Shown here: in pieces, positions 3,701-63,300 of the stretch
Layout of the letters: every line of letters begins with the position of its first letter
Numbering within the stretch: the first letter of the stretch is position 1
Assembly (NCBI RefSeq): GCF_000003815.2
Contig: NC_049986.1
Span: 5,093,000 to 5,156,999, forward strand
Reading direction: 5' to 3'
DNA: 64,000 bases
Source of the DNA: Branchiostoma floridae
Lineage: Eukaryota; Chordata; Leptocardii; Amphioxiformes; Branchiostomatidae
The notes under the pieces: model-generated
Databases searched by the model: none
What the model was told of the DNA's origin: nothing
The model's input: only the letters and a program-made list of their open reading frames with translations
Made by a program: the position numbers and the translations under genes

Positions 3701-6700
3701 TCAATGGACTCTTCCAGATTAAAAACCTCCAACTTTGTCCAAGCAAACCATTTTGAAGTACCATGAGCCAAATTGTGTAAACTATGCCCTGTTGGCAAAG
3801 GTCCTGTGATATGGTCATAATACTTACTTGAAGACTGTGACATATCTTTCCTGCATCAAACGAGGCCTAAGGAACTTGACTTCAGCAACATTACCCTAAA
3901 ACATAAAATCAATCAATACATTCTCAGTAATGTAATCAACTTCGCAAATAGAATAAAAAACAATCAATGTTGACTAAAATGTATCAAGCATCATTGCGTA
4001 TATATAGAATACAACACGGTGTATTCCGCATCACCCGAGGTATCAGCCCGACTGCGGGTCGGATCGCCCGACGGCCTTTGCCAGAAGTTGAACAAATTTT
4101 GTGCCCTCGAACAAAAAGTTCCAACGTCTGAATCAGGTATCGAACATTAGATGGCGCTGCACTCGGCCCGCTCGAAACAGTTTGATTTATTCGAATGGAG
4201 CCTGTGTGATACGCCTTTCGAACTGGTCTGATACGGAAGTTATGACCCAGTCCGGAACACCCGTATCAAACGTTTTTGCGTCACAGGTATGACATAAAAG
4301 ACTGTACCAGATATCCATATCACCTACTCCAATTTTCTGGCAGTACTAACGGGGGGGATCCAATGTCCGGTAACTGTTCTAAGTGAATGCGCATGGCTTT
4401 TGTCATCGTACGTTTTACTGACAACCCATCAAAAACAATTTAAGATCTTGTTAACAACCATATAACTGTGATTTAAGCTGTGCAGACATATGTTTCCTTT
4501 AACGGCAGCATTCCGAACTTTACTTTGACAGCGCGCGAAAGTTTTGGCAGGTTTGGACTTGCGTTTCAGTGGAACGTTCTAACACAAAAAAGGGGGTCCA
4601 AACTCCGATAAGTTAACAACCAATCCATCTCTGCATATCTTTAAGCATCCTATGCATGCAAAATAACACTAAGCTTCTGCAATACTATTTTTTGTCACAA
4701 ATATATGCAATATTTTGAATTAAGATGCATATTTAAATACGTTTACTTACAAGGATTACCTCTCACGGTGAAACCAACCTGTCGCCAAAAAGAAAAATGG
4801 CGGCACTTTGTTTACGTCTGCCTGCGATTACACTTTTTCACTTTCGGCTTCTGTATTTCCTGCTTCAACCTCGTTTTTAACAGCAGAAATGACTACAGGA
4901 TTTCTTTAGTCGGTAGGGATCGATTTTCTTGAATGATTGGTACTCTACTGACGGGTTGACTAACTCCATCGTGTTGAGCATCGCTTGGCTTCCTTCATAG
5001 GTGATTGACAAAGATGGCAGGGTTGACAGGGCTGTGAACATGCGGCATAATTCAGCTCCGATTATCCAACTATAAAAGCAAAGACACGGCATAGCTGTGC
5101 TTATTTAGGAAGTTTTATAGATAGCATTCTCATCTGTGGTGGTATCTTTTCACATTTCGTATTTGACGATGAATTATTTAATAGTTTCCCGGGCCATGTT
5201 CTCGATATGTTCGCTCGTCAGCATGCACGGAAGGCGTCAAACTTGTGTACTTTTTTCAATCGTTATCTGTTGGGGCTTACCAACTTGGACACATACTCTG
5301 ACTTTTCAGTTATTTACAACAAGGTTTAGTCCATAACAAGTTGCACTTATTATGTGCAGACACTTATGCATATTTCCGCAAAAATGATTTTAAAATCCTA
5401 CCGGACTTTGGACCCCTCCCGTTATATATTTTCCACCCATCACAAGTGTTTGTACATGTACAGGGCAATTCTTCTTAATATGCTTATCCCTACACAACAG
5501 TAGTAAGTTTAATAAGGCTGGTACTTGCTTATGAGCAAAGTCAGCATATTTCACTCCACCCTCCTCCTTATGCAAAAATGGACTGTTCCAAAATTGAATT
5601 TGAATAAAAAGCATCCCCTGTGAGAATGGACTCTTCAATAATGAACATTTTACATGTACATGTAGGTCTGCAAATCATCCCAAATCCCTTCAGCTGACAG
5701 GGAAGCAGGGAAACAAATTGAAAATTTTTTGGTGCTGTAATTCTTGAACTATTACAGTTCACCATTCAAACACTAAAATTTCATCATCCGTTTCAGAAGA
5801 CTAAGTATTGTGTCAGAAACAAATTTATGAGACTTATTCGGCATAATTCAAATGTGCAATCACACAAATTACTGTACAAGATTTAAACGAAATCTCTTAT
5901 AACAGACATCATTAAATCAAGTCAAAGGAATTTATAAGAAAAAAAAAATCTGGGGGTATTGGTCCAATCTAACCTTGTGCCAAATTTCAGTCATTCAAAG
6001 TCATTCAGTCCAGGAATGACAGAGATGTTTCCCTTTAAAGACTACAACAGGAGAAGAAGAAAGAAAAAAAGAAAGAAAGAAGAAGAAGCAGAAACATTAC
6101 AAACACATAATAAGTTTTATTGCAAATTCTTACCCGAGGGCTAATTGCAAGTGACAAAAATAATGGTAAACAGTATAGTAAGCGACTACTCTAGTCTAAC
6201 TTAGATTGGTTAAAGATGCAACTTATTGGGTTTGACTTCTTTTTCTGAGACAGTGGAAGACAAAAGATCCCACTTTTTCTTTAATGTGTGGGTTTTGCGA
6301 CGTTAAAAGGAGAGTAGTTTTCTTTTTTTCTGTAAACGTGGAGATATTAGGATAAAATTTGGTGGCTTCTTTTAAGAGCTCTTTTCTCTCTTGATCATAG
6401 AAGGGGCAGTTTGAGATAAAATGTGTTTCGTCTTCTACCATATCTAACGTACAGTAGTTACAAGTTCTTTCGTACACAGGTAATACAATATTTCATTCCA
6501 TACCATACCTTACTGACATAAGATAGTGAACAAGTACAAACCATCAGTCCCAACATATTTCTGTGTAGTTCCTGCTTGTCTGGGAAAGTCTGAAATGAAA
6601 GTATAACAGGTGTCAAGATATGTCACTACAGAGCAACTATTAACCCTGACAGTTGAAAAAAAGTTAAAAGCTGGCAGTGGTGAAATATTATTATGCAATT

Positions 6701-9700
6701 ACTAAATTGTTATTAAATTCTGAATGGGACCATGTAAAATGCAGTTCCATGTTCATTGTATTCTGTGTTCAACAACAACAAAATGTGTGATGAAGTTCTG
6801 TCAAACAGAGATTTCAAAATTCCCCATTACTTGTAGTCGCAAAATGAGTGTATAGAATTTGTGATCCATCCTTTCAATGTTCTTTGATGAAAATGAAGAA
6901 AGGAGGACATTATGACCATTGTCAATATGGCGGTCTGATTGTTATTATTTTGCTGTTAGGGTAGAAAATTATTGAGATGCCACAGTACTTTTGCACTACA
7001 GCATTACAGTTTCAATTGGCTGATGGACAAGAAGAAATTGTGACAAAGTAGAAAGCCCAATATTACACACTTACATTATCCACCTGAGGGATCAAGCTAG
7101 GTACATACTTCACTCCATAAAGCCCTATCTAACATTGCTTTTTCTAAGTTCTCAAAATCAATACCAGATTCTCTAGTTAAAGTGTCCATAAAAGTCAAAG
7201 TTCTGCAATGTACCCGGCCACCCGGTTTCCACTGGAGAAAGGACGAAACTATTTCCTGGTTGACTGGACAACAAATTTTACGCGTCGGTGGGTGAGCTTC
7301 TGAGATGGCCGTTGGAGACTTCCATAAATTGTTTTAAGACTAGCATGTTGAGTCCAAGATACATTCTGTGGTCTGCTAAGTAACTTTGTATAGGTCCCAT
7401 ATAATCTCTATTGGAGTTTGGTATTAATTGGTATAATCTAAAGCTTAATAAAAATGTCTAAAAAACATTAAAAACAGCTGGAGCCGATTGTCTTTGTGGA
7501 AACTACGATATTCCAGTATGATATACCACTTAATGTGCATAAATTATGTAAAATAGGACCACCCCATATTTGCATATCAATAAATATCAATTTGTATCTC
7601 TTGATGTTCTAAATGCCAAAAATTACATACATCAAAGTCCTGTTATGGAAAATCCTGGGATTGTAGAATTTCCTCAGTAATTATGGAAAATATTAAGTCC
7701 TAATTTGTATAATCCCCTTGTTTACATATTTAAGCTACCTGCCTACTGAATACCATATAAATCCATTGTTCCTTTGTTCAGTTATAATGTACATGTATCT
7801 ACCTTTACAGTATGTACAGGACAAAAGATGCAGAGATGATACTATTAATTGATGATTGAACTGACCTCTAAGCAGCTCAGGAAGAGGTCCATGCCTGACC
7901 CATCTATGAACATCTGACAGTTCTGAGGAGTCTCATCTGTAAACAGGACACAATACATCCAAAAATAATTTCATCACGTTGGTAGATCATAGGGCATAAG
8001 AGTTTTCTTTTACACACACATCAACCAGTTTTTCTCACCTGCTTACATCTCAGAGTTTCTAACTGGAGTTCTGCTTCTCGCCGCTATTTGTAGCCCATGT
8101 TGGTGGCCCTTTTTCCGCCATAACACTATCCCAAACCTGGCTGAGACTGTACCCCATTCGTCTCGGTTCAATCACTGGGGTGGATTTTGCAAAAGCGCCA
8201 CCTACATCGGCTACATATAGCGGCAAGAAGCAGAACTCCAGTTAGAAGCTAGAGTCTGAGGAAGATGTCTGACAGACATCAAAATGTCAGCAGGTGAGAA
8301 AAAACTGGCTGTGTAAAAGAAAACTCTTATGTCCTAGGACAGAATACAGTTGTGACTAGTATGACCATCATCGCCAATGGGCACATCAAAGAGATGATTA
8401 CAATTACTTAAAGGGGCATCATAATTTCTCAGGGAATAAATGATTATGCTTGAATTAAGTTTGCTTGGTCATATTTAAGTTAAATCCTTAACGTAGGTTG
8501 AACATTGTAGTGAACAAGTTCTTGATTCTTGAATTCCCCTGAGGACCCTTCTCATTGTGCACTGGTGGGAGAGGACGTGACTTCGATCATGGGAACAGGC
8601 ACCGGTCGGTACTGGTACACATTTCGATACTATGATATTTTAGGATTACTTTTTGAGTAAACAAACTGTGTGTGCACAAACTTCATTATAACTGCCAGCC
8701 AACCCGTTTCCATTCACCTTGTAAAATGTTCATTTAAATTTTCACTTAAATTGTTTTAGATTGGAAGCAAAAACGTGAGTGACATAAAATGTACATTACA
8801 GCACCTACCAGTTATATTCCACAGAGTACTCCAGGCTATCTCCATCACTTCATTACACTGAAACACAGAAATAACAGTCACTGGGGCATTATTACCAACA
8901 GGAAGGAGGTTCACCCTGATGGTGGCATTTTTTCTGGTTGGACATGTGCATTTCCTTTATCAGTAATGGCATGTTACATTAAAAAGGTGACAATGCAGGG
9001 CTCGAAATACACTTTTGGGTAAACAAGTTGAGCCAAAAGTTACTTGCACCAGAAGAAAATTACTTGCACAACCCAAAGTTCTTCTTCTAAAGCAGTAAAC
9101 TATGAAACCTGTATCTCCTCTTCTGAAAATTTAAAAATGTCGTATGTGAGTAAAGGGAATACGTGAAGATCACACAGGGCTCGAAATACACATACTTAAC
9201 TTGCAATTTGCATGTAATTTTTGAGATTTGCACGTAAAAATATTCTGAACTTGCAATCTTGCATGTTGAAAATAGCTGGCCTATAGTAAAAATACTGAAG
9301 CCACGGTGCCTTTGTTTGGCTAATTAATAACGGGGATTGTCATTGGTCGTCAGTAGGTGTTATAAATAATCAAATTTGGCTTTGCTGCAAACTTACATGT
9401 TGATTATGTGGATATCTTGCCAAAATTTGAAGTTCTGTCTATATTTTCATGCGCCGATTTCTGTCCGTCAAAAGTGACAGAATGAGCAAAATTCTCATCC
9501 AAAATTCTACCAAAGTACAGAATGATGGATGCTGGCTAGAACATTGCAGTATAGACTACGGTAGTTGTAGTTTGCATGTAAATTTTTCAAATTGCATGTT
9601 AAATTTTTGCCAACTTGCAATTTTGCATGTAGCAAAAAAAAAGTATTTCGACCCCTGGCACATGTTTGGATATCTTTTTTTTTTTTTGTGCTATTTTCAG

Positions 9701-18700: not shown

Positions 18701-21700
18701 AACCTGCATTGGTCCATGTACTGGGTTTTATACATGAATGTCCTATGGTGTAGGTGTATATGGATTGTTATTAGCTGCATTGACTGTTACCACCTATAAA
18801 GTATAAAAGAAAAAAATATCAATGGTTCCTGAACAATTTTAGTATGATCCATACTGCCTAAATTCAGAGTGGTGCAGGTAAAATTTGTCTGGTGCAGGTA
18901 ATTTTCAATGTTACCGGCACCAGTGCAGGTATGCAGAAAAAAGTATTTTGAGCCCTGACTTCTCTATTCTGGGAATAGTTCTCTCTCAGGTCTCTACCAG
19001 GCAAGTCCTTTGTAACCTGTTGGCCGCTTGAGTACTCATAGAGGTACTCATAGAAGTGATATTGTATTACTTTTTTTCTAGCATTTCGTCATAAATTATG
19101 TACATGAGACTCTGATTTGCATGATCTATGTCACATGATGTTCACATTTTATTTCCTTTGTAATGCTTCAGGTATGACATTTCCATCATTTACCACAATG
19201 GAATTAGAATATTTTAATTATGCAAATGAGCTCTTTAATATTTGCATAATTGGTATCTATAGACATTCCTCTTATTTATTTATTAATTATGCCAATTACT
19301 TCTTTCATGCATAACTAGTATGATAATCTTTATCATTTGTATCAACTTCATTTTAACTTGTCTACCTTCCTTTCCCATTGGACTACTAAAAATTGTCCTT
19401 ATCTCCTTTGCATTTCAATTCACAGTTAGGATATAAAACCTGCTTTCAAACAAGATCATTCTCTTACGTGTCACTGACGAAAGATAACGGATGTTATCTG
19501 AAACGTCTGACCGTTTCCAAAGTCATATCCAGTTGCTTGAGTAATTGCTATTTGGTGTACAATATGAGAGAAGTCTGACCCTGTGTGCAGGAATGTGCTC
19601 CGCCCCAGCAGCCCCTGTCTCAACTAGACCCAAGAAATCCAGCTTCTGTCTCAGTCCTCTCAGTCCAGCGATAGTACTGCGAACCCCCCCACCATCCTGG
19701 GAGCGGCGTACTTGAACTCTAGAAAAAAAGCAATCTTGAGGACCTGACAACTCTTTGTTTCTGTTTTTTGTTTGTTTGTTTGAAGAGTGCAACATAATAG
19801 TTGCAGAAGTTGGCCAAATGGACAGATAGCATGCCAGAGAAGTTAGCCAGCCTGTGATTACAGTCTGGCAGGACATGTACATGTAGCTACTAACCTTAAA
19901 CAGTATAAAAGTAACAAACCTGGCATGGTCAGCCAACAACCTCCAGTCACAAATTACATTAAAACAGTCTACTAGTACTTGTATAGGACACTATTGTTCA
20001 GAGCAACCCGCAGTCATGAAGAAGTTTTCTTCAGTCACAAACTACGATTTTAAACTCGGCGTAGGGCGACATACTGCCGCCATATGGTCGCAATAGGCAG
20101 TGTTTCTGTATCTATGGGACCAGAAATCGTGTGGCCGTGGCCACGTTGGACAGGTGGCTGCTATAGACTATTTCTTTGGTCAATGGGAAAAATCCAAGGG
20201 ACCGACAAAAAGGGACCGTACTGGCCAGGTGGTCGCTATGAAAAGGCTACACAGGTTTGACTGTATTGTGATCTTCAAATGTACCTTACCCTGAGTCTGT
20301 GTCAGACATGTCGTCTGATCCGCTGTCACTGTCCACATCCCCCAGACTGGTCCCAGAGATGTCCAGGGAAGTCAGGGCTGGGAGGCTGGCAACCAGCTTA
20401 GATAACAGGTGACTCTTTCCTGGGGTCTTCCTCTCCGGGAGGACTGACATGTCCAGGTGTCTGTTTGAAAATGCATTGTAGAATGGACCATGACTTACAC
20501 ATGACCCCAACAGTCATCCTGTATACTGCTACTTTTACTTCTGCAACATGGGAACCCCTCTGCCTTCATATGCCATAACTATGGCCGGGACTGCCATGCG
20601 AGGATTGGCCTACAGAGCCACAGAAGATGCTGTCAAATGCCCTAATATACATTTCTACTAAAGATGAAAGGATGCCTATAACAACAACTACTTCTACTAC
20701 ATATATATTGTCCTGTTCTGATTAACCCAAAGGCAATTGAAAATGAGCTTGACTTGGCTGTAGTTTCCCTGAGCTTACCTGAGTGCCTTCATGCTCATGA
20801 TCATCTGGTAAGCCTGGTCCTTCAGACTGCAGTTGTACAGGACCAGGGAGGACAGCTGGTGCTTTAGAGGTTCCAGAAAGGACAGGTCATCCACGTGTAA
20901 CCCCGACACGTCCAGCGAGGTCAGGTTGGACAGACTCCTGGCCAGGCTCTCCAGGCTGGTCAGCGGAAGTCCGTGCAGGTTCCCGATGTTCAACACTCGC
21001 AGTCGGGGCAGGTCCAGGCGGATGTCTTGATGTGGCCATGGAAAGGACGCGTTGCCGCTGATGTTGAGAGCCAGCAGTGTGTGTTTGGACTGGTGGAGAT
21101 GTTGTAGACAGTCTGCATTGATGTTGGGGCAGCAGGACAGATCCAGCTCCACCAGATGGTGTTCCCGGAGAGCTGACAGGACTTGGTTGTTAATTTTCTC
21201 ATTGCCGTGCAGGTGAACATGTCTCAGTCTGGTCTGCTGGGGGTCTGAGAAGACCCGGACAAATGGTCCATCCGCATAACCTCTCTCATTGGACCTGGGA
21301 TAACAAAAGAGCAGGACTGTTATAAAGGGTCCAGCCTAATTACTGTAAATGCATTTAAGTTTGGAGGATTTCATTTTGCGGTAGTCGGTAGAGTGTTTGT
21401 GGCGGTAGTGCCATATACTGTGGTCACTACAATGGAAAACGTTTGCAGTGATTTTGAGTTTGCGGTGAAGCAGCCACCACAGATTTTGGACCAAGCAGAA
21501 AATGAACAGATTATTGGCAGTATCTTCTGTACCAGTATCCATCCCTAATCAATAGACTAGTATATTCTTACCAGTTGAGTAACTTGTCGCTATATTCACT
21601 GGGGATGCAGATGTCAGTTTTGATGGCCAGTGGAACCCCTGCTCCATCCAGCACACAGAAGGTGCCCAGGTTAGCCAGGCAGTAGTGCACACAGATGTCT

Positions 21701-21735: not shown

Positions 21736-21944
21736 GCTACAGACAGGAAAGGACAACAATTTAAAAACATACTCAGGGCTCGAAATACTTTTTCTGCCTA
21801 CCTGCACTGGTGCAGGTAACATTGAAAATTATCTGCACCAGACAAAATTTACCTGCACCACTCTGAATTTAGGAAGTATGGGTCATACTGTACTAGAATT
21901 TTTTAGGAACTATTGCCATTTTTTCTTTATACTTAATAAATAAT

Positions 21945-43100: not shown

Positions 43101-46100
43101 CAGTGATTTGAGATTTGGAGGACATTAATAAAAGGCTTTGGTACATTTAGAGAAGACACATCAGGATTAAGACAGGATGCTGTGTAGTGAAGGGTTGAGT
43201 TTGTTTTGAAATGATACTCTGATGAGGACAGATACATACACACATACATCCATGATATACCCAGTAAAAGTTGGTTACCATTACTGCTTATGCCATATGG
43301 TGTGAAATATCATTTGAAGCACTAATTGCGTAATACACATACAATAAGTGCATGTTCCAAAATATTGTCTGTTTGTTTCTGCATCATGTATTTGTGACTA
43401 TACACTAAATGCAGGAGCTTTTGCGGTGGTTTAATGTTTGCAGTTTTCTCTGTGACTGCTTCACGGTGAACTCAAAGCCACCGTGACCATTTTCCTCCTG
43501 TCTTCTACTAGCGCCACTTATGGCACCCCCTTTTCGCTACATGTACGTAGTATAACATTGTCAAAGTACTTAGATAATGAATGTTTGAGGTCCTTGCCAA
43601 GGTGAAGACATAGGAGTGCAGCATTTTTTTTAGTTCTCATATATTCATCTCTCCATACAACCTACTGTAAAGCACCATGGTAGAAAAGTGTAGCTACACT
43701 ACGTATTCAGAGGGTAGATTCGGTTACAGTGACAATTGGTCACGCCAGAACTGTCAAAGTCAAAAGCGGACTGTTTTGTCCATTTGTAAGACCCTTGCTG
43801 AGTAAACAGTAAGTTTTTTCTGACTAGGCGCCAGGTTTTCCATTACACTATGTGAGGACAGTACAGTACTGTAAATGCATTTAAGTTCGTGGGATGGCGC
43901 TACCGCAAATTCAAAACCGCTGCGAACACTCCATTTTCCCGGTACTACAAAAGTAAATCCCTGCAAACTTAAATGCATTTACTGTAAAATTTTTGCACCT
44001 CTTGTTTTGAGGACTGATCAGTCGACCTTCTTCATAATTTTTATGCTCTCCTTTTTTTTCTTGTCTGCAGTTTTGTACTGGAAAGGGCCCAGTTTCTACC
44101 ATTCCAGCTACTCTGTAGTGGTGCAGACAGTGAGTGGAGACAGCCTGAAGCCTTCCCCTGGTCTGTCCTGCTGCCGGTCCTGGCTGCTGCTGGCAGGGAT
44201 GGACAGAATCACACAGCATGTCGGCAAGGTGAATTCTCTTCCCTCTCCCATCCAGGGCCAGATATATGGCTCGTTCTCATTTAAATGTCGAAATGCTGTC
44301 GCCTGACTTTACGCCTTGATATGGAGCAAATTATAGACAACATCACTGGTTCCTTCATTTTACCACAACCCCTGTAATATTTTACAACAGATGCACCACA
44401 ACATTCGTATTGGTCGATGGCTTAGAAGGTTTAGAATGATTGTTCGGCAGGTGAAACCAGCAACCAAGGCCCTCTGCCCGATCACCTCAGATCGCTCCTG
44501 TCACTGATCTTGGAGGCTGTGTGAGGTGGTTTATGCCTGTCGCCAGATTCGGTAACAAACGTTACCACCACGGTCGATAAGGCGTCAGAAGGATGACGGC
44601 TGAGACACAACGGTTTACCGGTTTCGACCTTTTAATCAAAAGTCTTCATCAGAATGACAAGAGAGTGGTACCGCACTGGCTTTTATAGCTTCTACTCTAG
44701 TTAGGGCAGGGTGCCCTGAGCAGTTAGGGCAGGGGATAGCCAATCAGATTACAGGATATCATATTGCACTAGCTATGTGGCCAATCAGAGTATAGGGTTC
44801 AATGGCCAATCAGCTTACAGGATATCGTTATGCACTGGATAGATCTGGCCAATCAGAGCGTGGTCCATTGTTCTCCCGGCCAATCAGCTTATGGGATGTC
44901 ATCTTGCACTGGCTGTATGGCCAATCAGAGTATTGGGTTCAGTGGCCAATCAGCTTACAGCATATCGTTTTGCACTAACTAGATTTGGCCAATCAGAGCC
45001 TATGTCTAGTCAGGTCAGGGCGCTCTGAGCGTAGTCCATTGTTCTCCTGACCAATAAGGTAGTTCGTCTCATAGACGATTGTTCTACTGGCCAATCAGGT
45101 TACATTTAGTGCCCTATGCCCTTTGTTCTATGACATCATCCGTTAGGCGGGAGATACAGACATGGAGTGCGGTACGGCTAACTATGAGCACTTGTACAGA
45201 GGTAAAAACAAGACTTGTCTATGCATACATGGCTGTGACTATTACAAAAGAGACAATAGTAAATATGCTGTGGTCTTAGCTTGCCGTGTGGAGAGGAGTT
45301 GGCCCCAGTCGTCCTTTGTAGAGTTGTCCTCAGGTGGAGTCTGTCGCGTCTCGGATCCGTTCCATGTGGATGGTAGGATGCTAGTGACCGGCTAATGTGG
45401 CGATTGAGTGTTCATTGGGTGACGGTCACGACGAGATGCTGCTCTTCAAACCCTGGTGATCTCTAAGGACTCCTGGTTCAGGCCCTCTGGATGTAGTGTT
45501 CTGAGTTGATGAATCCAGTAGGACTCCCGTTGCAGGCGGCGTTGTCTTGTGGTGTCTTCATGTCCTGTGTAGCGTAGTTTTTCGATTCCAAGAACTTCAA
45601 GGTCTGCAAGGTTGTGATCTGTGAGGTTGAAGTGGGCTGATACCGGAGTGTCCTTCTTCGTGTTGATGGATGATCGATGGCCGTTCAGTCTATTGGCCAA
45701 TGTTTGTTTGGTCTCGCCCACATATTGTAGCCCGCATTTCTTGCATTGGATGAGATAGACGATGTTTCTGCTTTGGCAATTGATGTGGTTCCTGATGAGA
45801 TGACGCTCTCCCGTGCGGTGGCTTGTGAAGTAGTTGATCTTCTTGATGTGGGTACAAGTGGAGCACTTGTTTCTTCCGCACGGAAGGACCCCGAAGGAGT
45901 GAATTTTTTCAGGAAGTTCTTGTCCTCCTTCGGGATCTGGGCTCTTACTAGGAGATCCTTTATGTTTTTGTTGCGGCGATAGGCAAACAGTGGTGAATCT
46001 TTGAATATGTCCTTGGTTCTTGTGGAGAGTTGCAGAAGGTGCCAGTATTTTCTGATGATGGTTTGTAGTGGCGGAAGGTGTGGACTGTATGTGGTGACCA

Positions 46101-48257
46101 GGACTGTACGTTCTTGTGGTGGTGTCGGCCCCTTTTCCTTCAGTGTGTCTTCGCGGGGGCGTTCTTGTGCACGCGTGATGGCGTCGTCCAGTAGGGCTTC
46201 TTCATAGCCCCTTTGCTGGAAGTGTTGCCGGAATTCTGCAGCCTTTTCCTTGAATCTGGGTGTGCTTGAGCAGATGCGTCTTAGACGTAGGAACTGACCG
46301 TAGGGAATCCCCTGCTTGCAGTGTTTGGGATGGGAAGAGTTTCTGAGTAGGTACTGGTGCTTATCTGTCGGTTTGGTGTAGAGGTCTGTTGTAATTTCCC
46401 CCTCCGAAATGATGACGGTGACGTCTAGGAAGTTGATCGAGGTTTTGGATGTTTCCACTGTGAACTTAATTGTCCTGTGGGCTTCGTTAAGGTCCTGGAT
46501 GAAGGCCTTTAATTCTTCCTCTGATCTTGTCCAGACTGCGAAGATGTCATCGATGTACCTCCACCATATCCATGGTCTTGGGGTTCTTTTGTAAACATGT
46601 CGTTCTTCGAAGTTCCCCATGAATATATTGGCGTAGGATGGGGCCACTCTTGTACCCATAGCCGTGCCTTGGATCTGGATGTAATGTTACCACCACGAGT
46701 ACGATGGTTGCCACGGTTATATTATCCACGTATAAGACTAGAAATGACCGTTTTTGTGACGCTGTACAGTTTTTCTGGCTTCCTAAAGAAACAAGAAAGG
46801 GTTGTTGACTGCTATTTGTATCCCACCTTGCTCAACAAAATGTTGTACAGAAATGTCTGTACCAAACGTTACCATTGTTCGATGCTGTCTAAGCTTTCTA
46901 TCTGACCTGGTGTAAAAAAAGCTGCCCACTTTTCAAATGTCCCTTGGGAGATCCACTTATACCTAAATGATGTAGTCAATAAGGTGAGTCCTTTAGAAGA
47001 AAACAGCGTTAAGTCAACAAACGTTACCGGTAACGTTTGTTACATGCCCTGTAATGCATTACCAATGGGACCGAAAGTAATAAGTTGCCATTTTTTGGCT
47101 ATGGTTGAAAGAGGAATCTTCCTAAAGAACCAGGTAGTTTTCACTGAAAATAAAGCCGATTTATTTTTGCGACCAGAAAAATGCCATTTTCGACATTTCA
47201 ATGAGAACGAGTGATATACATGTAGCATAGGATGTCAGTGTCTGTAGTGTGTGGGTACATAAACTAGGGATGTGCACCAGTACCCAGTACTGGTGCAGTA
47301 CCGTAAAACTCATCTAGGTACAGGTAGCGTCCTTTGTCCAATGTACTGGGACATCAAATTGTGTCGACACTGTACTTCAATGCAAATAACAAGGATAGGA
47401 TAAGACAATACGGAAACATAGTAACTACATAAAGGCATGAGACATGAAATTTCGTGTATGTGTAAGTATAATGTATTTTTTGCATATACAAGGACAACTC
47501 AATGCAGCAAGGTCTTTGCTAGTTCATCGATCAGTCCCCACCTCCGCCATACCAGGCTCAAGTTCATTCCACTCCCTGATGGAATGAGGGAAGACTGAGA
47601 GCCTGTAGTAGTAGTTGGATTTTCTCGTCATGTATGTCAGGTCAAGGGACTAGGTAGGTAGGTAGGTAGGTATGTCAGGTTGAGAGTGTGCAGCAGGAGT
47701 TCCTGTGACCAGTCTGAAGGCAACCTTTGTACCTGGTACATGTACCTGTACCTGATGTACATATCCCATGTACAAACTGTCACATTCAATGTTGACAACT
47801 TTTCAAAGATTTGTGCAATGCTTCACATTAGACTTTTTTTGCTGTTAAACTATTCTAACTGTAATTAAATGTTGTGTCAGTACATACAGTCTCTGTGTAT
47901 GTTACAGTAGACTGTTCTCATGAAGTGATGAGAATCGTGTAGTAAGATTGTGGGTGGCTGCCTGCATCATCACTGGCAGGTGAAGTGCAGGGCACATTTG
48001 GTTTCATATCGCAAATAAATCTGGCTAAATCTTTGTCACAATTGAGTTTTTATGACTTTGTCTGTATCCTGACAGTCCCTGTTGTTGTGCTGTCCTGCCT
48101 ACAGGAGGTTGTGCTGTGTTTTGTGGTGAGACCAGCAGACATGACTGAGGAGGAGCAAACCTCTCCCAGCTGCATCTCCAGGTTCAGAGTTCAGGAGGTG
48201 GTGATGAAGCGATGGGTGTCATCTCAGGAGCGGGAAGAGCACCAAGATGACCACTGA
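28041..48257 (+). CDS. TSEN2: TSEN2, tRNA-splicing endonuclease catalytic subunit (first exon cut by a gap)
   Basis: TSEN2/Sen2 cleaves the 5' splice site of intron-containing pre-tRNAs within the TSEN2-34-15-54 complex. Exons: 28041 to somewhere inside the N run at 28153-28252; 41245-41440; 41716-42198; 42580-42806; 44071-44228; 48105-48257 (TGA 48255-48257). From 41245 on the exons give 404 aa with consistent phases. Exon 1 adds at least 37, so the total is close to the human 465 aa. The catalytic triad is present: Tyr and His in the YWKGPSFYH block (same eight-residue spacing as human Y369/H377) and Lys at the junction HVGK-EVVLCFV. The C-terminus has VQEVVMKRWVSSQER, as in human. Intron 1 is about 13 kb and full of repeats; the last intron holds a PLE. 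Confidence 0.92.
28153..28252. other. Scaffold gap (100 N)
   Basis: A run of exactly 100 N, a conventional unknown-length gap. It hides the 3' end and donor of TSEN2 exon 1. Confidence 0.99.
28340..28455 (+). mobile_element. tRNA-derived SINE fragment
   Basis: Has a tRNA-like B box (GGTTCGATTCC at about 28387) with a weaker A-box-like GTGGCGACGGTGATAGCG upstream, followed by the tail GTTTTCTTTCTGTTCTTACT then CGCCCCTCT. The same tail goes with a tRNA-like head at 39877-40046, which supports a SINE family. Confidence 0.5.
28610..28715. repeat. Short GTGAGGCATGC(T/C)GGGA repeats
   Basis: GTGAGGCATGCTGGGA and GTGAGGCATGCCGGGA recur three times, then in altered form, mixed with CGCCATGTTG. Bridges the SINE and the 163-bp array. 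Confidence 0.7.
28715..30645. repeat. 163-bp satellite array, about 12 units
   Basis: The anchor GATGTGTTAACGAT recurs at 28851, 29013, 29176, 29339, 29502, 29665, 29817, 29965, 30023, 30188, 30351 and 30506. The usual step is 163 bp, with one 58-bp short unit. The unit contains ACTTGTCGGAAAGACATGTA, GGGACGACAGCCGCACAAC and an (AAC)n-ATGGCCATGGG segment. Units with TTTTCAAGAAGG occur twice, which suggests a higher-order duplication. Open frames here are incidental. In TSEN2 intron 1. Confidence 0.92.
30842..31391. other. Scaffold gap (550 N)
   Basis: 550 N in TSEN2 intron 1 just past the 163-bp satellite array. Reading frames that span it are artefacts. Confidence 0.99.
31392..32274. other. 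TSEN2 intron 1, stretch without supported gene
   Basis: Between the large gap and the outer inverted arm. Overlapping frames of 88-99 codons at 31859-32168 are open on both strands and end in a (CA)n run. No known domain, splice context or codon pattern favours either strand. Confidence 0.5.
34455..34985 (-). pseudogene. Decayed LINE reverse transcriptase, C-terminal part
   Basis: Minus-strand peptides in shifted frames include KVDRRIGKATCSRSKTRVLE, then KTKMEGYAACVIGTL, RMNAFLVRCICRFLRI and YGEVGSLVRLSSEDIYKRDW. The order DSRIGKA ... K...Y.ACV...L ... L..FH.RC.RRIL ... is the end of the RT domain of common endonuclease-type LINEs. Interrupted by frameshifts; no YADD core was found. Confidence 0.55.
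35545..37520. repeat. AT-rich minisatellite, 33-bp unit with a 39-bp variant
   Basis: The unit is AAGTCGAAACCAAGTAAAAA plus GATTTTTAAAAAT. A second form replaces CCAAG with a T-run and TATAG. About 55-60 units. A short inverted fragment is at 38697-38750. Minus-strand frames give FDLFLKIFLLG-type repeats and are not genes. Confidence 0.92.
39491..41244. other. Last part of TSEN2 intron 1
   Basis: Apart from the SINE (39877-40046) I see no gene. There is a palindrome AAATGCCTGAAAGGCATTT next to the SINE at 40047 and an ATT-rich stretch at 40765-40850. AACAAGAGTTTGGAGACCTC at 40988 is a short motif met elsewhere in the window. Confidence 0.5.
39877..40046 (-). mobile_element. tRNA-derived SINE
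   Basis: On the minus strand, A box TGGCTCGATCGGTTA (40032-40046), B box GGGTTCGATTCCT (39991-40003), then TTTCTTTCTGTTCTACTCG and CCCCTCTTGTC. An inverted copy of the tail (TTTCTTTCTGTTCTTACTCG) lies at 39870-39889. No functional tRNA fold. Confidence 0.6.
41245..41440 (+). CDS. TSEN2: TSEN2 exon 2
   Basis: The acceptor ATAG ends at 41244 and the donor is GTAATA at 41441. It encodes RFLGDCVVVTDLKEMTMLYT and NGFFGKG, corresponding to the human segment around [21 protein letters not shown] in the N-terminal domain. The tail is less conserved and basic. The first two bases complete a codon begun in exon 1. Confidence 0.85.
41716..42198 (+). CDS. TSEN2: TSEN2 exon 3: variable acidic linker
   Basis: The reading frame is fixed by exon 2 (AG-A) and exon 4 (AG-A) and is open for 483 nt. 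The peptide is Ser/Gln/Glu-rich, low in hydrophobic residues, and begins VEETSTADDGMEGG. It takes the place of the poorly conserved human linker of about 170 residues between the N-terminal and catalytic domains. Assigned by position and phase rather than similarity. Confidence 0.8.
42580..42806 (+). CDS. TSEN2: TSEN2 exon 4: start of endonuclease domain
   Basis: Encodes [20 protein letters not shown], nearly identical to the human [20 protein letters not shown], then YHYLRSKGWVPRAGVKYGA. The acceptor CCTCAG ends at 42579 and the donor GTGAGT starts at 42807. The exon ends inside a codon (TGG-G). Confidence 0.93.
43868..43986. mobile_element. Short intact MITE of the TGTAAATGCATTT family
   Basis: About 119 bp with inverted ends ACTGTAAATGCATTTAAG and CTTAAATGCATTTACTGT. 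In TSEN2 intron 4, just upstream of the exon 5 acceptor region. The smallest and cleanest copy of the family here. Confidence 0.7.
44071..44228 (+). CDS. TSEN2: TSEN2 exon 5: catalytic Tyr and His
   Basis: Follows a TTGTCTGCAG acceptor and encodes VLYWKGPSFYHSSYSVV, with the catalytic Tyr and the His eight residues later. It ends HVGK, whose Lys is the third triad residue. Donor at 44229 (GTGAATTC). Confidence 0.93.
44607..44652 (-). ncRNA. Hammerhead-ribozyme-like motif at the 3' end of PLE 1
   Basis: On the minus strand CTGATGA, an extra A, GACTTTT..AAAAGGTC stem, GAAA, C, a CGGT-AA-ACCG hairpin and TTG. The canonical core residues CTGATGA and GAAA are intact. It differs in sequence but not in layout from the CTGACGA-type motifs at 19474, 55762 and 62622. 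Confidence 0.45.
44735..45100 (-). repeat. Array of CCAATCAG boxes within PLE 1
   Basis: GCCAATCAG occurs about nine times (near 44739, 44782, 44812, 44851, 44880, 44921, 44944, 44988, 45091) plus one CCAATAAG (45051), in alternating contexts ending AGAGT or AGCTTA. CCAATCAG is the classic NF-Y/CCAAT-box sequence. Whether it works as a promoter is unknown. Confidence 0.7.
45446..46690 (-). pseudogene. PLE 1 reverse transcriptase / GIY-YIG polyprotein, broken
   Basis: The RT portion begins IQGTAMGTRVAPSYANIFMG and includes the catalytic WWRYIDDIFAVW, then the primer-grip-like INFLDVTV. A one-base frame change near 45890-45930 passes to the second frame, which reads PCGRNKCSTCTHIKK, then IVYLIQCKKCGLQYVGETKQ (the GIY-YIG core with its linker cysteines) and ends GLNQES. 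The N-terminal RT motifs are missing. The enzyme copies its RNA and nicks target DNA, but this copy cannot be active. Confidence 0.85.
47016..47041. repeat. Perfect 26-bp palindrome
   Basis: AACAAACGTTACC followed at once by its reverse complement GGTAACGTTTGTT. The half-site ACAAACGTTACC also occurs at 44556 and a close form at 46863, on both sides of PLE 1. Confidence 0.8.
47652..47676. repeat. (GTAG)n microsatellite
   Basis: A short run of TAGG units in TSEN2 intron 5. Confidence 0.8.
48105..48257 (+). CDS. TSEN2: TSEN2 last exon
   Basis: The acceptor CTACAG ends at 48104. It encodes EVVLCFVVRPADMTEEEQ, then CISRFRVQEVVMKRWVSSQE and an acidic end EEHQDDH, like the human ..RSDQDDL terminus. 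TGA at 48255. A possible ATTAAA polyadenylation signal lies at 48365. Confidence 0.93.
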   Translation, partial: EVVLCFVVRPADMTEEEQTSPSCISRFRVQEVVMKRWVSSQEREEHQDDH

Positions 48258-54300: not shown

Positions 54301-57300
54301 CTGGGAGACTGCTGGTTCCTGTCCTCGTGCGCGGCTATAGCCAGAGAGAGTAAGCTGATGGCTAAGGTGAGTGGTTGGAGTGATAGTCTCCACAACGTAC
54401 CATGTCTGTACCCTTAACGATGTTCTGATTGTCTGTTGATATGCGGCAAACTTCAGACAGTATGGAAAAGGTCACAGTACCGTATGTAGGCGGTCTGAAC
54501 CTCTAACTGTTTTTGCATATTTCTATTGTAGATGAGCATTTTCTCATTGTAACGGAGCATCCTTCGTAACGCTAGTGTGAAATTCTGAAATTGTGAACAC
54601 AACGTCGATATTGGTTGGTAGTGATGTATGGATAAACCATACTTACTCTGGGGAAAGACTTGTGGAAGGCACTTTCCTTGATCATTGGGAATTGCTCATT
54701 GTAGTAAACTATACATGGGGCATTTCATTTTCAACTGTCTTCAAAGAAGAAGTCAAGCCCCGTAATAGTTACGTAGATTTAGTACCCTATTCTGTATCGT
54801 ATGTACATTCGTCCACTTAATATTTGTAGATTAGAACTTAGATTATCTACATGTATTTAGACCACATTCATTAATTTCATGTATCTAGTCTTTCTTCACT
54901 TGCAATTAGCCCCATGGGCATGAACTTGCAATAAAACATTGTTTATTATCCCCAAAGGTTATTCCCAAAGACCAGTACCTGTGGAAGGGCGGAGGCCGGT
55001 ATGCGGGCGTGGCTCACTTCCGGTTCTGGAGGTTCGGGGAGTGGCAGGACGTGTACGTGGACGACAACCTGCCGACCGTATATGGCAACCTCACGTACGC
55101 CAGATGTAGCGATAAAAATGAGTTTTGGCTTCCTCTCATCGAAAAGGCATATGCAAAGTGAGTGTTTTCTATCAATAATCCGCAAACAAATTGTTTTTTT
55201 AAATGGGAGAAAAACTCATACATAGATAGAACTTGGTTTTACGAATAAATTTACAATAGTATATACTAGATTTATTTAGTACATATTATTATTATATATA
55301 GTATTTCAGTGTTTATAAGGTTTTATTGCTTTACATCCATTACCCCACGTGTGTTCATTTGTGCTTTTTCCCCCTTTGGGCATGAGAGGGGTTGATGACC
55401 CGCCCCGATGTAGGATGGTGGCATAACCCCTGGTTTGCTATAAACACAGAAGAAATCCACCGAGTGAAGCGAATGAGGTGGAACAATTCATATATCCGGA
55501 CAATGCGCCAAAAAAGCAGTTACTGAAGCAACTGGATAAGATTTGAGAAACGGTTAGACGTTTCAGACAACCATCCGGGGTTTTTCGTCAGTGACACTGA
55601 AGAGATCTTGTTGGAGTTTTTATATCCTAGCTGTTATATGCAAAAGTGATCTAGCTGGAGAACAGGTTTATCTTAACTATGAGTTATCAATTCACAATTT
55701 ACAATTTGCATATCAAAGGTAGGATATGGAAACTCTCTCCAACAAGATTTCTTCAGTGTCACTGACGAAAGACCCCGGATGGTTGTCTGAAACGTCTGAC
55801 CGTTTCCAAAAATATCCAGTAGCTTGAGTAACTGATTTTTGGCGTATCTTATTACATGGGTGTCTAACCTTCATCGACGTATCCTGACAATGTGTGTGGA
55901 CTATGGATAAGGTCATGTGAATTTCTCCTTACGGTCCTACCGTTCCCTCCCACAGACTGAATGGATCCTACGCGGCGCTTATACAGGGCCATGCCAACGA
56001 TGCCCTGACAGACCTGACTGGAGGAATATGTGAAAGATTCAAAACTGGAAGACATGAAGAAGAAGTTCTGTACAAAACATTGCTGAAAGCTCAGAAACGC
56101 GGTTCTTTCATGACGTGCTCCACACAGGTGACAATTTAATTTGCACTGCGCTTTGGGATGTACATAATTTTGGGCCCCCTGGCATGTGACTTAAGTACTG
56201 CAGCAGAAATTCCGTTTTTTTGTTGTATCTTTTGACCTGGACGTGCCATGGTCTTGATTTTTGGTGGAGGTAGCTTGTGATGCAAGGAATACTTGATGTA
56301 TGTTTGGGTGCCCTAGCAGGTTGTTCTTGAACTGTAGGGGCGTTTTTGTCAAAGTCGGTGCTTTTATAAGTGGCTTTTATGAGAGAACGAGCAGACAAAC
56401 TTTAGCTCATTTTCATGTATTTTGTAGATTGTACCCGGAATTTTAACATATTCAATTCTTGTTAATTACTTTTGCACCCTGTTATACATTTTGAGGCATC
56501 GAACCTCCTCACTTCGGGGTCCTTAACAATGTAAATCCCCATAGATGAAAGACTGTGAGCTACCTTGAGTGTTGGAAGACCAAGGTCAACTTGCACCCCC
56601 CCCTGCCTTGGTACTGCACCAGAACTTCCGCTTTTGTATCTTTTGTCGTACACATGCCGTGGTCTTGCTTTTTAGCAGCAGAGACTACAGTATAGACATG
56701 CAGTGAATGATACATGTAGATATGTCAGTTTTTTACTTTTGCCTCTTTGAACCGACGCAGAGCACGTTTGACGAGGGTAGTAATGAAGGGTTAGTGAGCG
56801 GCCATGCCTACACCATCACAGGAGTCGAGAAGGTATGTTATCGCTATTGAAACACTTTCAAGAGACTTGTCAATCTGTGGATAGTTTCATCAGTTTGGTG
56901 CGACACTGAATAAAGTGCTTCGGTGACCGTCTGTCGCTTTCCCCAGGGCGGTTCTGGCTGGTTCACATTGTACTGCAGCAGTAGGTGTCGCTGCTTACAG
57001 TTACAGATGCAGTCACGAAACAATTTGCATATGTACAATACTGCTTTTGACAATTGATGCATTCTTAAGAAGTAGATTGACAATGTTGCATCGTTATTAT
57101 TGTTTATTGACAACTGCTTGAATATATCACACTCCATTACGTTTCGGACCACATTTAAAAAAGGCAGTCACTGTATATTTGTAAATACTTTAAAATTTGT
57201 AACTGTAAACAGCAACTGTATCTGTAGCTGCATTTGGAACTGTATGCGGAGACACCTAGTGCCGTAACACAATGTGAACCAGTCAGAATTGCCCTTAAGG

Positions 57301-60300
57301 AAGGTAACAGACGGTCACCCAAACTTCGGCGTCGGTGTACATAAGATAACGGTTGTGTGAAAAGAGTGTCTTTATTGAAGATTTGCCAAGGGTCTTCTTT
57401 GAAAGCGTCTTGCGACCAGAGCATTTTCTTATAACTACATGTACGTTCTTGACGACATTAGATAAGGAACTCTGGAAAGACCCACAACCTTCTCCGGATC
57501 AGGAACCCGTGGGGCCGCCAGGAGTGGAAGGGAGCGTGGAGTGACGGGTCAGTAGGCTTTCTCTCATGTGTCACTCACGACGTAAGGCCGGCAATGATGC
57601 TGTCTGATCATGTTTATCAATCCAGAGCACACACACACAGACACAGATACACACACACATTCACACACACATACACACACACACGCACACAGGCGCGCGC
57701 GTGCACGCACACACACACAAGTATACACTAAAATACACACACAGGCACAGACACACACACACACACACACACACAGACATACACATACACACACACAAAC
57801 ATACATGCACACACAGACACGTACGCAGACATATATGAATAAGATATATTTACATATATGTACATATGTACATACGCATATATATAGAGAGAAAAAGAGA
57901 CTGAGAGAAAGAGAAGAAGTAATACCAGGATACCCCATAAGCCCCGGTCACAAAGCGCGTACGATTTCTTGCGATGGTATATTCCGCATATCGTACGATG
58001 AGCGCAGTAAATCGCAACAAAATCGTAAGCAAAATCAGCCATCGCAGAGCATCGGATGATGTTCAAAATTTTTCCAGCGTCGTACGATTTTTCACTTGTG
58101 TTTCTTCTGAATAGCCGCCTGACCGCTTTTGCGCTTCTTTAACCAACCAGATGTGGACATAGCTGTTGAATACCTTCCTATAATATCTTTAACTGTAAAA
58201 ATAAATTAAAAGAGACCATGACAACATGAGTATTACAAGCAAAGGTTCAAATCAAGGACAAGTACTGGTATGGTTATCTCGGCCTGTTTGCCGGCTCTTC
58301 GAGTCAAGCTTTTTCGAAGATCGTATTATGATATGCTATAAACAAAAATGCTATCAACAAAAATGCTATCATACAAAAATCATATCATAAGCATTATATC
58401 ACATATATTTTCGACTCATAGAGCCTGCCTTTCTGTTCGAGTTGTCCCTATGGTTATTACGATCATGGTAAACTGACCCGAGGCAAACGAGAGCTGAGAT
58501 TTGATCTAATTATGAACTCACGTGCATGTAGCGATATAACAATTGTCTGCATCACCTGTGCGTGATACTGAATCTGCCACGTGTAAAACATTGCCTTGAA
58601 GGTAGGCTCCTCAACGGGCGCGCTGTTCTCTGGTTGCTACTGTGGCAGTTGCGACTGATGTAGTTTCCCAGGCCTTTAGAATAGTATCTGCCATTTTTCT
58701 CCCAAACTAAATAATCCCCTTAACACTGCCTTTCGACTGCTGCTTTTTACCAATGTGCGGATTTGCATGACCTCTTATGTACTAGAATGTAGAACTGCTA
58801 TATCTTTGATCATGTAAGATATACGTTTCCAGGTCATCAGAGTGGCAGAGAATGCCAGAAAACGTCCGACAGAGGCTTGGTTATGAGAACAAAGACGATG
58901 GAGAGTTCTGGTACGTAATGCGCTTGTGCGCCGAAGACACATCAAATACGTCACCCCGAATCAGCAGTAGAGTACAATTTTGTAGAATTGCATCAATGAA
59001 CAGAAAACACGGCATGTATAAGATAGAAGAACTGTATTGCACAGCAATTGTGCGCAGTACATGTATGGCAACAACTATTACACATGGTGCAAAATAGAAC
59101 ATATGACTAAATACAAGGCTCTACATACACAGCACGCAGACTTGAAGCAACTGTTTATTGCTATCAGCATATCGCCAGCGAGCTATTCTTCACTGTATTA
59201 TGCCACGTTATGCTATAGCTTTAGTCAATCATATCGACCCCGCGTCATGTATATAAGGTGAATGATTGTTACAATAACACCATGTATGCCCCCCCCCCCC
59301 CCTGTGGTAGGATGGAATGCGGGGATTTTTGTGAGTTCTACAGAGAGGTCACCATCGCTTCGCTGGCAGAACACGAGGTTGTTAAAACTGGTAAGCTCTT
59401 CTGTTGTACTTGGGATTTTCAATCTGTATGATGCTTGTTTTTTATGCAAAATGCCCTGCCATGGACTCCATGGCAGGGCATTTTGCATGGAGTGTTTTTT
59501 AAAAGACCCATGTCCACTTTTTTAAAAGACCCATGTCTACTAGAGGACGGGACCAAAAGTTTCATAGACCAATTCGAATTTCATACGTAATAACGAATAT
59601 TTAACATTCCGTGTGTTTTGTTTTCTTCTAAATCATACTTACATATTGCACCATATTCCACTAATGAAATGAAGGGTCACATGAAACCAACTGGTCCCTG
59701 TACGGTCGGTCAGCGATCGCAGTCCAGTGGAATTCCTTATACCCCTGTCACATTGTCGACTTTAGCCGACTCTTAGCCGACCCAGGTCGGCAGTAGTTCG
59801 GGAGTTTGACGCTTATCTTTTAGTGCAGAACATGTACCAAACATGTCCTAACCATCTCCCGACCAGTAAATGACTTACTACCGACTGTGTCCCGCATGTT
59901 ATCTACCCTATTCCCAATCATCCCGACCTCTAGCTGCAGACTGCCAAATTCGGCTGTGTGTAACTGGGGCTTGAGTCGACATGAAGCTTGAAGTGTGTTT
60001 CTGCCTTTATCAACAACAATAAGTGTTTTACACTTTCATAAAGACATTAGGGCAGACGCCAGAACCAAGGTTTCTTCCAGCCATAGCCTATAAGATGGTG
60101 TGTATTCTTTGGTATAACCGCTTTGATTCTGTAACAGATGTGAAGTCGAAGTGGGACGTTGCACAGGAAATAGGAGAGTGGGAGAAGGGTGAAACCGCTG
60201 GAGGCTGCCGCAACCACATGAAAACCTACGCCAAAAACCCGCAGTACCTCTTCACACTGTCGTCTCCAGGTACGAAAATCCACAGTACCTTTTCTCACCA

Positions 60301-63300
60301 TCGTCTGTAAGTATTAAAAAACACAGTACCTCATCACACTGTTTTCTGTAGGTTCTTAAAATCCGCAGTACCTATTCACACTGTTGTCTGCAGGCACGAA
60401 AAACCCACCGTACCTTTTCTTACCATCGTCTGTAAGTATGAAAAACACAGTACCTCATCACACTGTTTTCTGTAGGTTCTTAAAATCCGCAGTACCTCTT
60501 CATATTGTCGTCTGCAGGTACGAAAATCCACCGTACCTTTTCTCACCGTCGTATGTATGAAAAACACAGTACCTCATCAAACTATTTTCTGTAGGTACGT
60601 CGATGTAGGTTAGACATCCAGGTAATAAGATGCGCCAAAAATAGTTACTCAAGCAACTGGATATGGTTTTGAGCTAAAAGTAACTCGCGGCCAACAAGCC
60701 CAACACGATAAGGGGAAAGCCAGACAAAGGGACAAATTTGAACGTCTATTACAAAAAGAAGGGAACAGTCGTGCAGATAGGGACCCCAATTGGAGATCAA
60801 ACAGTTCCAAAACCCCAGTTCAGACTAGAACAGACGAAAGGTGGATCAGGAATCTCAGTAGCCATACTCTTACAGAACCGAGAAATCGCTACTGTCTAAA
60901 GGCCTAAATTTTGCAGTAGCCCCTAACAAGATCCCCAGCATCGACATTGTCACAGAAACTGAGTCAGCAATCCACCGGGCCCGTTTGCCACAGAGACAGG
61001 CTGAAGCCTTACGCGCCAAAGTAGCTACCACTTTGAAAGTTTCAAAACCCCCTCCCAGCAACATCACTCGGGAAGAACAAACTGCTCTCAGAGATTTGGC
61101 CACCAATCAAGACATAGTAATTCTGCCGGCAGACAAGGGGAGATGCACAGTAGTCTTAGACAGGGAACAGTACGACAGAAAGGTACAAGATCTATTAGGG
61201 GACAAAAACACCTACGCGCCTTTGAAGAAGGACCCCACCTCCCAGTTTAAAGGGAAAATCATCACGGCTCTCAAGGAATTGGAAGACAAGGAAAAAAAGA
61301 TTGACCGTGCCACCTATCTAAAACTCTACCCCACTTCGGAACAACCCCCAACCTTCTACGGCCTCCCACAAACAGGATGTCCCCCTACGCCCCATTGTGT
61401 CCAGCATAGGTTCTGTCACGTACGAGTTAGCAAAATTTCTAGCTAAGATCCTGGGACCTTTAGTGGGGAAGTCTCAACATCACGTTCAGAATAGTGCAGA
61501 CTTCGTTGACAAAATCAAAGATCTCCGGGTAGAAGAAGATGAAATCATCACTTCTTACGATGTCTGTTCGCTTTTCACTTGCATACCTCCTAAGGACGCA
61601 GTCTCGGTAGTCAAGGAAGCCCTGGAGGCTGACAACACACTAACAGACAGAACCAAGCTATCTCCAGACCAACTGTGCAAACTGCTAGACCTTTGCCTAG
61701 GGTGTATTTCTCTTTCAAAGGACAGTTCTACCAACAACTGCACGGCTGGAGGAACACAAACACCTCCGAAGTGCATTGAACAAATGTGGTTACCAAAACT
61801 GGACTTTCAACAAAGCCCTCAAACCCTCGGACCACTCAAAGAAAACAGCCAAGTGCAAACCATTGACCGACAGAAAGAAAGCCAACATTACCATCCCCTA
61901 TGACCAAGGAGTTTCGGAAAAACTCAGACGGATCTTCCAAAACTTCAACATCGCCACTTACTTCAAACCTCACTCAACCCTCCGACACAAACTGGTACAT
62001 CCAAAAGACAAACCACAGAAAGGTACTAAGGCCAATGTAATCTACAGACTCAAATGCGAGGAACCCAACTGTAACAACACATACATTGGTGAGACTAGTC
62101 GTCCACTAAAAGCAAGGTACCAAGAACATTGCAAACCGAAGGCCAACGGCTACTCTTCTGCTATTTTCAACCACCTAGAACACAACCAAGGACATTCCTT
62201 CAACCTCCAATCTACCGACATCCTAGACCGCGAAGCCCGCTGTTTTGAACGGGGAGTTAGAGAGGCCATATATGAGAGAATATACAATCCCACCCTCAAC
62301 AAAAAAGGGGGGCTACGTATGGAACTTTCCGGCACTTGGGACATAGCACTGACCCCCCCCCCCCCGCCAACAAAACTTTAGCTCCTGTAACTAAAACAAC
62401 AGGAGCTAATTGACTCATTTGCATTAACTGTGTCTTAGCCTTGCTATCCTTTGAAATCCAAGTTGTCTTCAGCTTGACTTTGGTTTAGCTTTGTTTTCTT
62501 TGGAATCCAAATTGTCTTCAGTCTGAATTGTCTTACAACCTTTCCTATTGGACATCTGAAATTGTCTTCATTCATAGTTAGAGTATAAAAGACCTGTTTC
62601 TTCCAGATCTCTTCAGTGTCACTGACGAAGGATAGTGTATTCTATCCGAAACGTCTGACCGTTTCAAAACCATATCCAGTTGCTTGAGTAACTATTTTTG
62701 GCGTATTTTCTGTAGGGTCTTAAAAACCGCAGTACCTCTTCACATGTCGTAAGTACGAAAAACCCACAGTACCTTTTCTCACCGTCATCTGTAAGTATGA
62801 AACAAGAAAGCTTCTGAAAATAGCTGGCCGGTGCGTATTTTGGAAATAGCCTGGATGGTAAACAAAATCACACGAAAAAAGAGTTTTTAAACATCGAATT
62901 ACTGAAATGGTCTTTCTTCTATTAAAAAAACACTACATGATATTTGTCTAACAAAGAAAAAAAAATTAGCAAGTGGGGTTCGAACCTACGATCTACGGCT
63001 GGAGAAGCCAACTAAGATAGGTTCCGTGCTCGGCCACGCTGGCTTGAATACGCAATAGCACGTATAGAAGGGCTATTTGGTTAAATTGACCGATCCATGC
63101 ATCCATGGATCCATGCAACCGCTTCTCCCGTCTCACCGGCAAAAAGCCTTCACACTGTTTTCTAAAGGTTCGAAAGGTCACGCTTGCAACCGCCAATCGG
63201 GGTTCGCTTGCAACACCTCTAGGTTCCGTGAAGGTACATCTGCGTTATCGAACCCCACAGTGCCGCACCAATGCCCCAAGTGTAGTGGGATACAACCTTA

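Follow-up and report, generated by a model that had tools for sequence, protein, structure and literature searches.

Does this region of the lancelet genome carry hammerhead ribozymes at the ends of its Penelope-like elements (PLEs), and how could motifs with almost no third stem be active? The question is raised by a stretch of 64,000 nucleotides from Branchiostoma floridae contig NC_049986.1 (hereafter the window), in which a first-pass annotation, made from the letters alone, had claimed a hammerhead-like core with a covarying stem II in a Penelope-like context. Our analysis supports that reading, with the reservations that Rfam returned no hammerhead match and that cleavage is predicted from the sequence. 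The best explanation, to which we give a probability of roughly three in four, is that two distinct Penelope-like retroelements in the window carry minimal type I hammerhead motifs in their terminal, pLTR-type regions, and that two motifs must share a palindromic stem III in order to act. The core, the covariation and the context form the basis of the hammerhead reading. The class of motif is already known and the copies are new; their placement relative to a predicted promoter is the part worth testing. Amphioxus, Penelope and hammerhead all occur in PMC3409120.

Copies of the motif in the window

The motif occurs in two versions (Table 1). The lineage A form comprises CTGACGAA, a hairpin and then GAAACGTC, and is found at 19474, 55762 and 62622 on the forward strand and at 55591-55557 on the reverse strand, while lineage B is a more diverged second version at 44652 on the reverse strand. 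The first-pass annotation had listed 19474, 55762, 62622 (+) and 44652 (-) as sharing CTGA(C/T)GA, a hairpin and GAAA; all four places are as described, and the fifth copy, at 55591-55557 (-), had been overlooked. The copies at 55557 (-) and 55762 (+) form a head-to-head pair that matches at 93% over 75 nt.

Table 1. Positions in the window of the hammerhead cores, their stems, the predicted promoter elements and the remains of the Penelope-like reading frames
Feature	Position	Strand	Details
TATAAAA	19432..19438	+	42 nt before 19474 core
Lineage A hammerhead core	19474..19507	+	stem II 7-8 bp
Lineage B hammerhead core	44616..44652	-	CTGATGA followed by an additional A; 7-bp stem II; GAA and palindromic ACCGGT; cleavage predicted 3' of A44616
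Initiator-like TCATT	44653..44657	-	A 44655 lies 32 nt after first T of TATA and 3 nt before core
ATTGG/CCAAT-rich stretch	44653..45102	-	450 nt before lineage B core; 10 ATTGG (inverted CCAAT) and 1 CCAAT, within repeats
TATAAAA	44681..44687	-	first base 35 nt before lineage B core
Lineage B Penelope-like ORF	45446..46683	-	frame-broken, apparently 5'-truncated; RVT_1 and GIY-YIG
Lineage A hammerhead core	55557..55591	-	absent from first-pass annotation; mismatches in stems I and II
Lineage A hammerhead core	55762..55796	+	decayed stem II with 4 outer bp remaining; has lost its TATA box
Lineage A ORF remains	60862..62381	+	spread over three frames; ~61959-62252 resembles lineage B GIY-YIG region
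TATAAAA	62584..62590	+	first base 38 nt before 62622 core
Initiator-like TCAGT	62613..62617	+	A 62615 lies 31 nt after first T of TATA and 7 nt before core
Stem I, 5' strand (62622 copy)	62618..62621	+	GTCA, pairs with TGAC 62656-62659
Lineage A hammerhead core	62622..62655	+	CTGACGA 62622-62628, extra A 62629, GAAACGTC 62648-62655; predicted cut after C62655
Stem II (62622 copy)	62630-62647	+	6 bp
Stem I, 3' strand (62622 copy)	62656..62659	+	TGAC

Such motifs are short, and the core alone is common: two core-pattern scans of a viral collection matched 57 and 93 stretches (80 of the 93 listed; 144 loci were analysed in all), with hairpins at about the chance rate. The 57 stretches contained 67 core matches. 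Six of these had a stem of at least 4 bp, a single repeated sequence accounting for three of the six; in 200 shuffles the corresponding number averaged 2.3 and peaked at 6. The 144 loci gave 73 unique matches once identical ones were merged, five with a stem of at least 4 bp against a mean of 3.6 in 500 shuffles. The viral core matches show no clear excess of hairpins, unlike the window copies. There, the pattern CTGANGAA-N8..36-GAAACGTC matched four times against 0.01 expected (pattern scan, 100 shuffles). A looser, lineage-blind scan (CTGANGA, 0-2 nt, stem, GAAA) yielded 14 candidates, the longest stems being 8, 7, 6, 4 and 4 bp; five stems reached at least 4 bp against a mean of 0.38 in 500 shuffles, and two reached at least 7 bp against a mean of 0.016. 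These counts, well above the shuffles and accompanied by the covariation described below, make a chance resemblance very improbable. Four of the top five candidates of the looser scan are the places listed by the first-pass annotation, and the stem of the 55591 (-) copy falls below 4 bp in it. A candidate at 12525, with a 4-bp stem in the same scan, is unrelated to the other copies and was set aside.

A model built from the window copies (R1) recovered five copies in the window at E of 1.8e-12 or lower, the next match standing at E 0.31. The copies used to build R1 score 50-63 bits; the best score among the 57 viral loci was 20.5 bits (E 0.012), and among 75 of the 87 further viral loci 22.2 bits (E 0.0051, a match shared by two loci), values that we take as chance, the loci having been preselected by the core pattern. 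Relatives of the lineage B reverse transcriptase fragment were also sought in the viral collection, where six stretches matched a pattern and none was confirmed. One viral contig (L007) has four core-pattern matches at 6252-6855 (-), three of them within ~180 nt and none among the best 20 hairpins.

Conservation of the core and covariation of stem II

We applied hammerhead numbering to the core, with the positions that we take to be U16.1 and H17. On this assignment the core positions CTGAnGA, GAAA, U16.1 and an H17 that is not G are present in all five copies, H17 being A in lineage B. Three of the four lineage A copies have a stem I of 4 bp and the remaining one carries a mismatch in it; in lineage B stem I is 2 bp.

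A covarying stem II had been proposed from the first, and the alignment of the five copies agrees: all seven pairs have changed on both sides, the covariation score of 0.771 was reached in 0 of 500 shuffles, which average 0.342, and 82.9% of stem II cells pair, falling to 22.9-51.5% when the partners are slid, figures that are suggestive, coming from five sequences, four of them close relatives, in an alignment picked with the structure in mind. The accompanying statement that pairing is kept in the hairpin holds for three of the five copies and fails for 55762 and 55591 (-), where stem II has decayed. The former retains pairs 1-4, followed by two C-T mismatches at pairs 5 and 6; the latter has the same two mismatches and a broken pair 2 in addition.

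The extra A next to stem II that had been pointed out is present in all five copies, and its standing as a novelty was dropped, citing the accessible part of PMC10085705. Insertions after A6 and next to C3 lower activity elsewhere, and none after A9 was encountered in the portion of PMC3088659 available to us.

Penelope-like context of the motif

The motif at 44652 (-) lies downstream of an RVT_1 fragment and a GIY-YIG domain. The GIY-YIG match (E 2.8e-8, 34.4 bits) is above its Pfam cut-off of 22.6, and the RVT_1 fragment (E 5.8e-6, 26.6 bits) is below its cut-off of 29.6. The motif at 62622 (+) lies downstream of the broken lineage A ORF, for which Pfam gave no relevant match and no reverse transcriptase; part of this ORF aligns with the lineage B GIY-YIG region (27% across 98 columns; pairwise E 1e-5). 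The Penelope-like context asserted by the first-pass annotation is borne out by these domains in lineage B and by this resemblance in lineage A. Every copy in the window lies inside or close to a broken element and could be a relic.

A related placement is seen in the Terminons, where hammerheads also occur at the end of Penelope-related elements (PMC6431247, excerpt). Theirs differ in sitting at the 3' end beside telomeric repeats, which were not seen in the window; the same review, in the part available, suggests that they have an auxiliary role in preprocessing RNA templates.

Several repeats were recorded around these elements. A minisatellite with a unit of ~41 bp flanks the lineage A ORF at 60234-60574 and 62706-62810 (+), its second part beginning ~50 nt past the hammerhead. 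An inverted repeat of 46 nt (96%) joins 60627-60672 and 62664-62709, such that the stretch just 3' of the 62622 hammerhead recurs inverted before the ORF. Inverted repeats of 101 nt (94%) lie 2.8 kb apart at 18841-18941 and 21789-21889 with the 19474 hammerhead between them, and are possibly the ends of another transposon within which the Penelope fragment is nested. The window also includes a CA-rich microsatellite of varied units (57624-57847) and runs of N at ~28.1-28.6 kb and 30.8-31.4 kb, which appear as X in translations.

A loop-less, palindromic stem III

The third stem had been described as very short. Short it is, and the description was incomplete, as its two sides touch without a loop. 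The sequence here is GAAACGTC in lineage A and GAAACCGGTA in lineage B; on the hammerhead reading the bases from A15.1 to U16.1 are ACGU and ACCGGU, respectively. Both are palindromic and free of non-conserved bases, ACGU in all four lineage A copies and ACCGGU in lineage B. Because there is no loop, stem III cannot close within one molecule, and because ACGU and ACCGGU are palindromic, a common helix of 4 or 6 bp can form between two motifs. The bare palindrome duplexes have computed energies of -1.7 kcal/mol for ACGU and -8.3 kcal/mol for ACCGGU. We infer a dimer, its cleavage and its role on the following model: each motif would contribute a conserved core, a stem II hairpin, a weak stem I and a loop-less stem III, and two motifs would pair through ACGU in lineage A or ACCGGU in lineage B, sharing one stem III, in order to become active.

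This arrangement closely resembles the minimal type I PLE hammerheads of Cervera & De la Pena 2014 and Lunse, Weinberg & Breaker 2017, as cited in the available parts of PMC7761336, PMC6155905 and PMC6466107. The type I core, the missing non-conserved part of helix III, the PLE location and the stem III palindrome are common to both, and those parts establish no difference; in lineage B the palindrome measures 6 nt and stem I is nearly absent. The published motifs are usually without non-conserved helix III bases and may cleave as dimers (PMC7761336, in part); they sit in PLE pLTRs, again with possible cleavage as dimers (PMC6155905, in part); and hammerhead dimers are stated to require a stem III palindrome and, in eukaryotes, tandem motifs (PMC6466107, in part). 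Model R1 found no direct tandem pair of motifs in the window, the one pair being the head-to-head 55557/55762, and the elements are incomplete. Weak stem III helices and dimer activity are also features of the double hammerheads of newt satellites and ASBVd, with a palindromic loop in salamanders; in these the short stem III is closed by a loop, whereas the window motifs are loop-less (PMC6155905, PMC7229834, both from excerpts).

All four lineage A copies could alternatively form an ordinary stem III of 3 bp, in which ACG pairs with CGU across a 6-nt loop; the cut would then fall further downstream and the motif would be active as a monomer. With such a looped stem, stem I would keep ~1 bp next to the core, compared with GUCA/UGAC on the loop-less reading, and the usual lack of non-conserved helix III bases in published minimal PLE motifs (PMC7761336, excerpt) likewise speaks against it. 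We give this alternative a slim chance.

Single-molecule folds and covariance models

An Rfam covariance-model search had been named by the first-pass annotation as a test that could refute it, and it returned no hammerhead match: at the gathering score there were 0 matches in the whole window, and up to E = 10 no hammerhead family appeared around 62622, 19474 and 44652, the copies at 55.6-55.8 kb being covered at the gathering score only. We count this as a negative result and not as a decisive one, because the published minimal variant is without part of what the full models score. The motif is classed with that published minimal variant and not with any Rfam family. Moreover, the lineage B site was absent among the 25 matches up to E = 10 of a second model (R2), built from the four lineage A copies only; the link between the lineages therefore rests on the core motif together with an alignment chosen beforehand.

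Single molecules are predicted to fold otherwise. In three of the four lineage A copies the lowest-energy fold is a long hairpin that ties the core's GACG to CGUC, at -15.5 kcal/mol in the 62622 copy, where the hammerhead pairing minus stem III comes to -11.2; with 160 nt of context, GAAACG is predicted to pair with CGUUUC. These predicted folds fit an activity that would be weak, assisted or confined to dimers, and in lineage A would also fit a non-catalytic hairpin. Either the GUCA-GACG-stem II-CGUC-UGAC hairpin, which is this minimum-energy fold, or GAAACG/CGUUUC could serve the element protein as a binding site or act as a priming structure; GAAACG..CGTTTC is intact in all four lineage A copies, and lineage B has, by eye, a partial counterpart (CGG/CCG, with A-U pairs across a bulged C). 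The GACG/CGUC pairing is impossible in lineage B, yet the hammerhead core bases are kept there, and the CTGAnGA conserved in both lineages is explained by neither hairpin. We consider a purely structural hairpin unlikely.

If the motifs are hammerheads, the protein of the element would probably assist cleavage. The precedent is the Anolis Poseidon element PAc, whose hammerhead cleaves only with its protein; for that element public RNA-seq was without reads ending at the cleavage site, and insertion in vitro was independent of cleavage (PMC11167929, available in part). Stem I, stem II, the core and a Penelope-like context are common to PAc and the window copies (PMC11167929, excerpt). The interval between stem II and the cut is similar too, amounting to 26 nt in the 62622 copy when counted from where stem II begins to the predicted site. 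The two differ in that the PAc ORF starts at stem II (same excerpt), whereas the lineage A core CTGACGA has no ATG and the ATG of CTGATGAAG in lineage B opens just a 5-codon frame.

A predicted promoter in front of the core

Both lineages have promoter-like elements immediately upstream of a hammerhead core. TATA boxes and TCA(G/T)T belong to the core promoter, and NF-Y binds CCAAT. TATA(A/T)AA stands 33-42 nt before the core in four of the five copies, and TCA(G/T)T starts at most 10 nt from it in four of the five. The 10 nt before the 19474 core contain no TCA(G/T)T, while the 55591 (-) copy has both the TATA box and TCAGT at a spacing of 26 nt. Taking both strands together, TATAAA-TCA(G/T)T pairs at a spacing of 29-33 occur twice in the window, each time directly before a hammerhead (62622 and 44652), against ~1 expected by chance (arithmetic from 73 TATAAA and 342 TCA(G/T)T, both strands); noticed post hoc, they are striking by position and not by number. 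Since the lineage A copies share descent, these are two independent cases. TCACT spans the start of the core in all four lineage A copies, and transcription might start there instead.

We tentatively raise a scenario, on the doubtful side of our estimates, in which the ribozyme is built into the transcription start. The RNA would begin 7 nt (62622) or 3 nt (44652) before the core, so that all transcripts initiated at that point would have the ribozyme at their extreme 5' end. On cleavage they would lose the cap together with ~40 nt, and a translatable mRNA would become a template that has no cap; the protein encoded by the element, after its synthesis, could trigger this switch if the hammerhead is protein-assisted like that of Anolis. 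The role of PLE hammerheads is called unknown, a mystery, in the accessible part of a 2020 review (PMC7761336). The predicted start-site placement in one copy per lineage makes cap removal, as a switch from translation to template, testable by mapping of 5' ends.

Parts of this scenario have counterparts elsewhere. The plant LTR retrozyme NbRZ1 also has a terminal-repeat promoter upstream of a hammerhead, and the ribozyme cuts off the 5' part of the transcript; it differs as a type III hammerhead in a non-autonomous element (PMC12029980, excerpt). In the pLTR of the Adineta vaga Penelope element Pen2a, a putative TATA box is followed by an Inr-like TCACT, and the pLTRs are inverted, comparable to the 55557/55762 pair (PMC3846280, in part); a difference is that the term hammerhead has 0 occurrences there. 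Our literature search returned no account uniting Penelope, hammerhead, TATA box and transcription start or promoter within a coverage that left out key papers of 2014, 2017 and 2008, and the idea may already be in print.

The lineage B core is further preceded by the ATTGG/CCAAT-rich stretch listed in Table 1; when 450-nt stretches were drawn at random from the window, the region itself among them, 0.16% contained as many of these motifs. The repeats in question occupy 44739-45098 (-) upstream of the hammerhead, and comprise two 121-nt copies lying 140 nt apart, along with a 47-nt family; CTGATTGGCC, the inverted form of CCAAT, is frequent in them.
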